From contig NZ_JABURL010000016.1 in NCBI RefSeq assembly GCF_014762705.1, positions 28,796 to 92,795 on the forward strand: a stretch of 64,000 nt of DNA, written 5' to 3'. Both the position numbers and the translations under genes were made by a program. Shown one piece after another: positions 62,777-63,875 of this stretch. This DNA is from Cyclobacterium sp. GTDB lineage: Bacteria > Bacteroidota > Bacteroidia > Cytophagales > Cyclobacteriaceae. The notes under the pieces are model-generated. The model had not been told where the DNA came from. It saw only the letters and a program-made list of their open reading frames with translations, and did not search any database. Position 1 is the stretch's first letter, and the number at the start of each line of letters is the position of its first letter.

Positions 62777-63511
62777 TTAAAACAAAGCTACAGAGACACC
62801 AAAATTGAATTGAGAAGCCTCAGTGCCAAAAGGACCATTTCCCTCTTCAAACAAAGCATTCAATCCATAATAAGCCCAAAGGTTAAATCCTGGAAATCCC
62901 AGTCTGGTGTATGCCCCATATCTGATAGGACTCAATCCGTATTCCTGGCTATTTTTCACTTTTTGGCTCAGGCCCTCACTATCCGTTACTCCGATTTTGG
63001 AGTGGGCATTGTATAAAAATCCAAATTTGCCCCCTATAGCTACCCTGAAGCCACTGTTGTAATCACTTTTATTGGCATGATACCTGAATTCAATTGGAAT
63101 ATCAAGGTAATTGATGGCCATTGTATTGGTTTCTACCCGAATATTTTCTCCATAGATCTCTGATATGGGCACCAACTGACTGGAGTTCGGTCCTTTAGCG
63201 GGATCCGGGATAAGGGTCAGGTTGTCCTGAAAAGCAAGCTTTTCCAAACCGAAACCTATTCCGGGATTAAATGTGAATCCTGAATTAGCACCAATTGGCA
63301 GTTGAGTTTGGTAGTATATGTTCACCACACGTGAAGCAATGAACCTGGTATTCAGTTCATCGGGCCGGTTATTCAGCATATTGAATCCAAAATCCAAAAA
63401 CAAATCACCTTTTATGTTGGGTCTCCCTCCTATAGGAGTTCTTTCTTTCTCCTGAGCCTGCAGTTGAAAAGTGAATAGTAAAATAAAGGATATTATGGTA
63501 AGTCTTTTCAT
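62777..63511 (-). CDS. Outer-membrane beta-barrel (porin/PorT-like) protein
   Basis: The 244-residue product has a signal peptide (MKRLTIISFILLFTFQLQAQ) and amphipathic strands ending in FNFGVSVALF, a terminal-Phe signature of outer-membrane barrels. Segments such as GGRPNIKGDLFLDFGFNMLNNRPDELNTRF, here cited as DLFLDFGFNMLNN, and PIEFRYHANKSDYNSGFRVAIGGKFGFLYN indicate the barrel. It resembles Bacteroidota PorT/OmpA-beta-barrel-type proteins, function unknown. A 43-bp leader shared with the methyltransferase gene and an 18-bp inverted repeat lie immediately upstream. Confidence 0.82.
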   Translation of the reverse strand: MKRLTIISFILLFTFQLQAQEKERTPIGGRPNIKGDLFLDFGFNMLNNRPDELNTRFIASRVVNIYYQTQLPIGANSGFTFNPGIGFGLEKLAFQDNLTLIPDPAKGPNSSQLVPISEIYGENIRVETNTMAINYLDIPIEFRYHANKSDYNSGFRVAIGGKFGFLYNAHSKIGVTDSEGLSQKVKNSQEYGLSPIRYGAYTRLGFPGFNLWAYYGLNALFEEGNGPFGTEASQFNFGVSVALF

Positions 63512-63548
63512 GTGTTTATAATTGTTTCTTGATGGTCACATGGAATCT
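63506..63548 (-). repeat. Leader repeat copy 2 (43 bp, before beta-barrel gene)
   Basis: This copy matches 53718-53760 at 41 of 43 positions and covers the start codon and the preceding 37 bases of the beta-barrel gene. A weaker match (TTAAAATCATC here, TTAATAATCATC there) continues upstream. Confidence 0.85.
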
Positions 63549-63551
63549 TTA

Positions 63552-63600
63552 ACGATTAAAATCATCATTGCCCTGTATGTTTAATGATGATTTTAATCGT
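63552..63600. promoter_or_regulatory. 18-bp perfect inverted repeat
   Basis: ACGATTAAAATCATCATT (63552-63569) and AATGATGATTTTAATCGT (63583-63600) are exact reverse complements around 13 bp. The element lies 41-89 bp before the beta-barrel start. It has no T tract on the gene's strand, so it is more likely an operator or an RNA hairpin in the leader than a terminator. Confidence 0.6.
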
Positions 63601-63748
63601 GTCGATTTCATGAAAACAATGATTATTTGATCAATTGATCGGCTAAATTATGAAATATTGATTGATTTGGTGTGTTAATCATCTTAATAATTCTTAAATA
63701 ATTAAGCTAAGGCTTTTTCTGATCTGATGATTTTACCTGAATTTGATC

Positions 63749-63779
63749 TTTGTAATATAATCAATATTCTTTACCTTTG
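63749..63779 (+). promoter_or_regulatory. Consensus Bacteroidota promoter of tRNA-Arg
   Basis: TTTG (63749-63752), 19 bp, then TACCTTTG (63772-63779) matches the primary-sigma consensus TTTG-N19-TAnnTTTG exactly. The predicted start near 63786 is about 13 bases before the tRNA. Confidence 0.85.
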
Positions 63780-63798
63780 CATTCCATTTACAAGAAAT

Positions 63799-63875
63799 GG
63801 CCTCGTAGCTCAACTGAATAGAGCACTTGATTACGGCTCAAGAGGTTCCAGGTTTGAATCCTGGCGAGGTCACCA
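63799..63875 (+). tRNA. tRNA-Arg (anticodon ACG)
   Basis: The 77-nt gene folds as a complete cloverleaf. The acceptor stem is GGCCTCG with CGAGGTC and has one G-U at 2:71. The D stem is GCTC/GAGC, the anticodon stem CTTGA/TCAAG with loop TTACGGC (anticodon ACG, positions 63833-63835) and the T stem CCAGG/CCTGG. Discriminator A73 and an encoded CCA follow, and A20, a known arginine identity base, is present. A34 should be edited to inosine to read CGU, CGC and CGA. The D loop has A at position 19 and the T loop has T at 56, replacing the usual G19-C56 pair. A15 and T48 form an alternative Levitt pair. Confidence 0.97.

Follow-up and report, generated by a model that had tools for sequence, protein, structure and literature searches.

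An A19-U56 elbow pair in place of G19-C56 in the tRNA-Arg(ACG) of Cyclobacterium and its relatives

The tRNA-Arg(ACG) gene and its surroundings

The window analyzed here, a stretch of 64,000 nucleotides from a Cyclobacterium sp. contig, carries near its end a tRNA-Arg(ACG) gene on the plus strand (63,799–63,875), which ARAGORN calls as tRNA-Arg(acg) at exactly these positions and which is kept in 11 of 11 same-genus genomes examined. Divided by arms, the gene reads GGCCTCG TA GCTC AACTGAATA GAGC A CTTGA TTACGGC TCAAG AGGTT CCAGG TTTGAAT CCTGG CGAGGTC A CCA, a length of 77 nt including the encoded CCA. It scores 60.6 bits against Rfam RF00005 (gathering score 29) with model positions 1–71 complete, and every stem is paired, so the canonical 77-nt cloverleaf described in the original prediction is recovered in full apart from the elbow pair.

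That pair is contributed by two loops, both on the plus strand and both assigned from the sequence and the ARAGORN arms. The D loop AACTGAATA (63,812–63,820) comprises A14, A15, C16, T17, G18, A19, A20, T20a, and A21, which places A19 at window position 63,817. The T loop TTTGAAT (63,852–63,858) spans positions 54 to 60 as T54, T55, T56, G57, A58, A59, and T60, which places U56 at 63,854; the variable loop supplies U48. The G19-C56 pair, commonly regarded as invariant, is the face on which the ribosome, RNase P, and many enzymes dock. In this gene, the elbow bases G18, T55, G57, and A58 are all present, as is a Watson-Crick pair between positions 19 and 56, but that pair is A19-U56 rather than G-C. 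The bases A19, U56, and A15-U48 are exactly those named in the original prediction, and A15-U48 is ordinary in this genome, occurring also in its other Arg tRNAs and in some non-Arg ones. The anticodon ACG lies at 63,833–63,835 (plus strand; ARAGORN gene position 35), and the Arg determinants A20, C35, and G36, the last two within the anticodon, can be read directly from the sequence.

Among the tRNAs of the genome, this gene stands alone in two respects. The other Arg tRNAs have the anticodons TCT, CCT, and TCG, the ACG pattern matches once, and neither the tRNA loci that were read nor the pattern search yielded a second ACG tRNA in the genome. In addition, G19-C56 is present in all 28 of the other distinct tRNA sequences read from the genome, a count that covers the 37 hits apart from seven genes with a long variable arm. 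A34 is expected to be inosine (ICG), and by general decoding rules we take the ICG tRNA to be the genome's sole reader of CGU and CGC, which make up 105 of the 727 Arg codons in the long ORFs of the window.

Upstream of the gene, at 63,748–63,782 on the plus strand, aligned upstream regions of same-genus loci reveal a predicted Bacteroidota-type promoter consisting of TTTG, a 19-nt spacer, and TACCTTTG, an arrangement that is kept across the genus. The known promoter consensus of the Bacteroidota is TTTG / TAnnTTTG, and it is from the match to this consensus that we infer promoter function. The perfect promoter of the original prediction is therefore apt in the Bacteroidota sense, whereas a generic sigma-70 scan, like a terminator scan, gave nothing above shuffles. 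Promoter conservation and single-copy status both suggest that the tRNA is transcribed and functional.

Farther upstream lies a palindrome (63,535–63,615) with a 19-bp stem (CGATTAAAATCATCATT..AATGATGATTTTAATCG) and an outer stem, situated just before the start of a minus-strand ORF (62,777–63,511). It folds with −32.6 kcal/mol (z = −8.1 versus shuffles) and matches no Rfam family at its gathering score. On the other side, the contig ends 125 nt from the tRNA gene. An rRNA operon accounts for this break: in a complete genome of the same genus the 16S rRNA gene starts ≈410 bp downstream of the tRNA (L038, 1500–2000), and several sister genomes have a contig break at this point as well.

Covariation of positions 19 and 56 and switching between states

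The A19-U56 pair extends well beyond this genome, occurring in all 11 of the same-genus genomes examined (two of which are single-contig) and in every readable same-family copy, across many other genera of the family. When neither position 19 nor position 56 was fixed in the search pattern, 138 genomes of the order yielded tRNA-Arg(ACG) sequences of two kinds alone, G19-C56 and A19-U56. The 64 distinct sequences divide into 39 GC, 25 AU, and 0 mixed (Fisher p = 2.5e-18, uncorrected for relatedness), which answers affirmatively the question posed in the original prediction of whether A19 and U56 covary in the Cytophagales, and no other alignment column of these 64 sequences separates the two states. 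A phylum sample of tRNA-Arg(ACG) agrees with the same split among the matches listed. An association with the state that is not strict, and is uncorrected for relatedness, is seen at T-stem positions 50 and 51, close to the elbow, and at the 32/38 pair. Two further features of tRNA-Arg(ACG) in the order are that positions 32 and 38 change in concert, being either C32-A38 or U32-C38, and that position 37 is A, not G, in families f13, parts of f9, f4, and f20.

The scarcity of mixed pairs is not confined to this anticodon. Patterns covering all anticodons in one common D-arm layout (and so blind to rare mismatched tRNAs with another layout) returned 0 matches for G-U and 0 for A-C at 19-56 in 248 genomes of the phylum. 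A-U returned 23 matches in 16 genomes, belonging to Arg(ACG), Arg(TCT), Ala(TGC), Thr(TGT), and Gly(TCC), and G-C returned 202 in 15 genomes, extrapolated to ≈3,300 in 248. In this 248-genome sample, the double change thus outnumbers single mismatches by more than an order of magnitude.

Both states coexist within the order. In relatives with G19-C56, no other kind of ACG tRNA was found in the genome, and for that reason these relatives do not indicate decay in the window's genome. On an rpoB tree of 81 order genomes (31 AU, 50 GC), built with FastTree from this one gene, the state changes at least eight times, and six of these changes are forced by starred branches; several forks of the tree are weak, and some of the switches rest on draft genomes.

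Instead of base changes in place, these switches could reflect whole tRNA genes that were transferred horizontally or replaced. The clearest case of a switch is genus g45, where G401 (GC, a 380-contig draft) is sister to G055 (AU) and G361 (AU) falls outside. The tRNA neighborhoods differ among the three genomes, as transfer would predict, yet G055 and G401 share a private and unusual acceptor stem, GATTTCG/CGAGATC, while their tRNAs differ at 19, 37, 56, and the 49-65 pair. Because of this shared stem, the g45 change looks vertical, within the lineage, rather than imported. Transfer would also fit the tRNA core of G359, which is identical to that of G452, a genome of another family, namely that of the window; G359 has a completeness of 84% and a contamination of 6%, the latter being a possible source of the f17 switch. 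In family f24, G265, G321, and G333 have a tRNA-Arg(ACG) of the G19-C56 type with a different body, and G265 and G321 carry an A-U tRNA-Arg(ACG) as well. The extra G-C type ACG tRNA of these two genomes counts in favor of transfer and was perhaps imported. Set against this, the 8 changes on the tree compare with 24.9 in shuffles, and the distribution of the state closely matches genera and most families. Taken together, we consider transfer an unlikely explanation.

The A-U elbow is also found in other tRNAs. When the genome collection was scanned for tRNAs with A19-U56 and a base other than A at position 34, the matches listed included Gly(UCC) in many Bacteroidales (Bacteroides, Prevotella, Alistipes, and Porphyromonas), Ala(CGC) in Saccharibacteria, Opitutae, and alphaproteobacterial MAGs, Thr in Pacearchaeota, and Arg in Planctomycetota [Arg(CCG)], Melainabacteria, Pyrinomonadaceae, Gelidibacter, and a cyanobacterium. 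Because the pair is found in other isoacceptors and phyla, A19-U56 is, on the genome sequences, a recurrent natural alternative rather than a unique oddity, with a likely independent origin in those other tRNAs. The Gly(UCC) form (L116, L131, L155, and others) is possibly an order-wide feature of the Bacteroidales.

Explanations for the A-U elbow

Very probably, the gene encodes a normal, working tRNA-Arg(ACG) with an ancient compensatory G-C/A-U swap in its elbow that has switched several times in the order. Being isosteric with G-C, A-U would keep the Watson-Crick geometry of 19-56, and the A58-G18-G57-19-56 stack with its flat outer face would remain available to the ribosome, RNase P, and tRNA enzymes. 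The double substitution would be ancient and common to the family and many relatives, with the order passing between G-C and A-U several times via an intermediate too short-lived to see. The tRNA, presumably read as ICG, would decode CGU and CGC. That it folds, is charged, and decodes normally in the cell is suggested by its conservation and by the tolerance of engineered A19:U56 tRNAs elsewhere, and selection presumably acts against the 19-56 intermediate. The simplest account is neutral compensation through a short-lived intermediate. The original prediction of a compensated double change in a functional gene agrees with the perfect covariation and with this being the sole ACG tRNA of the genome. 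The variant is not, however, peculiar to this gene: whole families, other tRNAs, and other phyla carry A19-U56, and the state has switched repeatedly.

Two other readings assign the A-U pair a selected function. The first treats 19-56 as a two-state switch in a small set of tRNAs, with intermediates purged almost completely and A-U having a tRNA-specific selective role in elbow stability, docking, or T-loop modification; we regard it as improbable. The second, which we judge quite unlikely, holds that the A-U elbow was selected for a specific role, in ArgRS, RNase P, or ribosome docking or in T-loop modification, as opposed to neutral compensation. Selection of this kind would be consistent with the persistence of A-U across whole families, with its recurrence in few tRNA species (Arg, Gly-UCC, and Ala-CGC among the matches listed) rather than at random, and with the lean of T-stem positions 50 and 51. 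However, both states occur among close relatives, and the other tRNAs read from the genome keep G-C. No ArgRS residue is linked to the elbow state beyond shuffles (best 0.519 versus a shuffled mean of 0.482), which speaks against a co-changed ArgRS residue. Gain or loss of T-loop enzymes as a permissive factor is likewise rejected, with TruB present in 46 of 46 genomes tested, AU and GC alike, and TrmFO over the cut-off in 0 of 46, whichever the state; the weak TrmFO matches, mostly in frames of ≈620–700 amino acids, are probably MnmG.

The rarity of the bases and the proximity of the contig end might point to a sequencing error or to a decaying copy beside an intact one, the two outcomes against which the original prediction had cautioned, but the chance of either is negligible given that 11 further genomes of the genus, including two single-contig ones, have the identical elbow pair, that every stem is paired, that the loci and pattern matches of the genome include no second ACG tRNA, and that the rRNA operon accounts for the contig end.

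Under the favored reading of a compensatory swap in a working tRNA, it would be pairing, not letter identity, that matters at 19-56 of this tRNA-Arg, and what began as one odd gene widens to a clade-wide, recurrent two-state pair. The existence of clades with A-U in one essential tRNA, and only in certain tRNAs, suggests that, in living cells, elbow readers accept shape over base identity. Sister lineages in both states, with the intermediates unseen, offer a natural experiment on the compensatory evolution of a tertiary pair. For tRNA annotation models the result is a warning, as A19-U56 genes should not be scored down as defective.

Comparison with known elbows

Established structural work describes the 19-56 pair as the end of the A58-G18-G57-G19-C56 stack, where it forms the flat, exposed surface of the elbow (PMC4810234). 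Our search of the open-access literature found no description of a natural A19-U56 swap, and the elbow and T-loop reviews searched by text make no mention of such a variant. The relevant cases of U56 with A19 in the literature searched are engineered mutants only; a C56U change described for a T-box system lies in the riboswitch RNA, not in a tRNA.

Compared with the canonical bacterial tRNA-Arg(ACG/ICG), the tRNA described here has the same cloverleaf, anticodon ACG, A20, 9-nt D loop, and 5-nt variable loop, as well as the same T-loop U-turn bases at 54, 55, 57, and 58, and differs in that A19-U56 replaces G19-C56. The natural Gly(UCC), Ala(CGC), and Arg(CCG) tRNAs with A19-U56 show the same change of the elbow pair but, unlike tRNA-Arg(ACG), represent other isoacceptors and phyla. 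The identical double substitution has proved functional in engineered tRNAs. In human mitochondrial tRNA-Ser(UGA), A19:U56 restores charging by SerRS, which a disrupted pair abolishes (PMC10412605), and a Thermus thermophilus pre-tRNA-Gly with G19A/C56U is cut by PRORP3 about as well as wild type (PMC5039416). Whereas those are laboratory mutants of other tRNAs, the A19-U56 pair of this tRNA-Arg(ACG) is natural, fixed in its clade, and recurrent.
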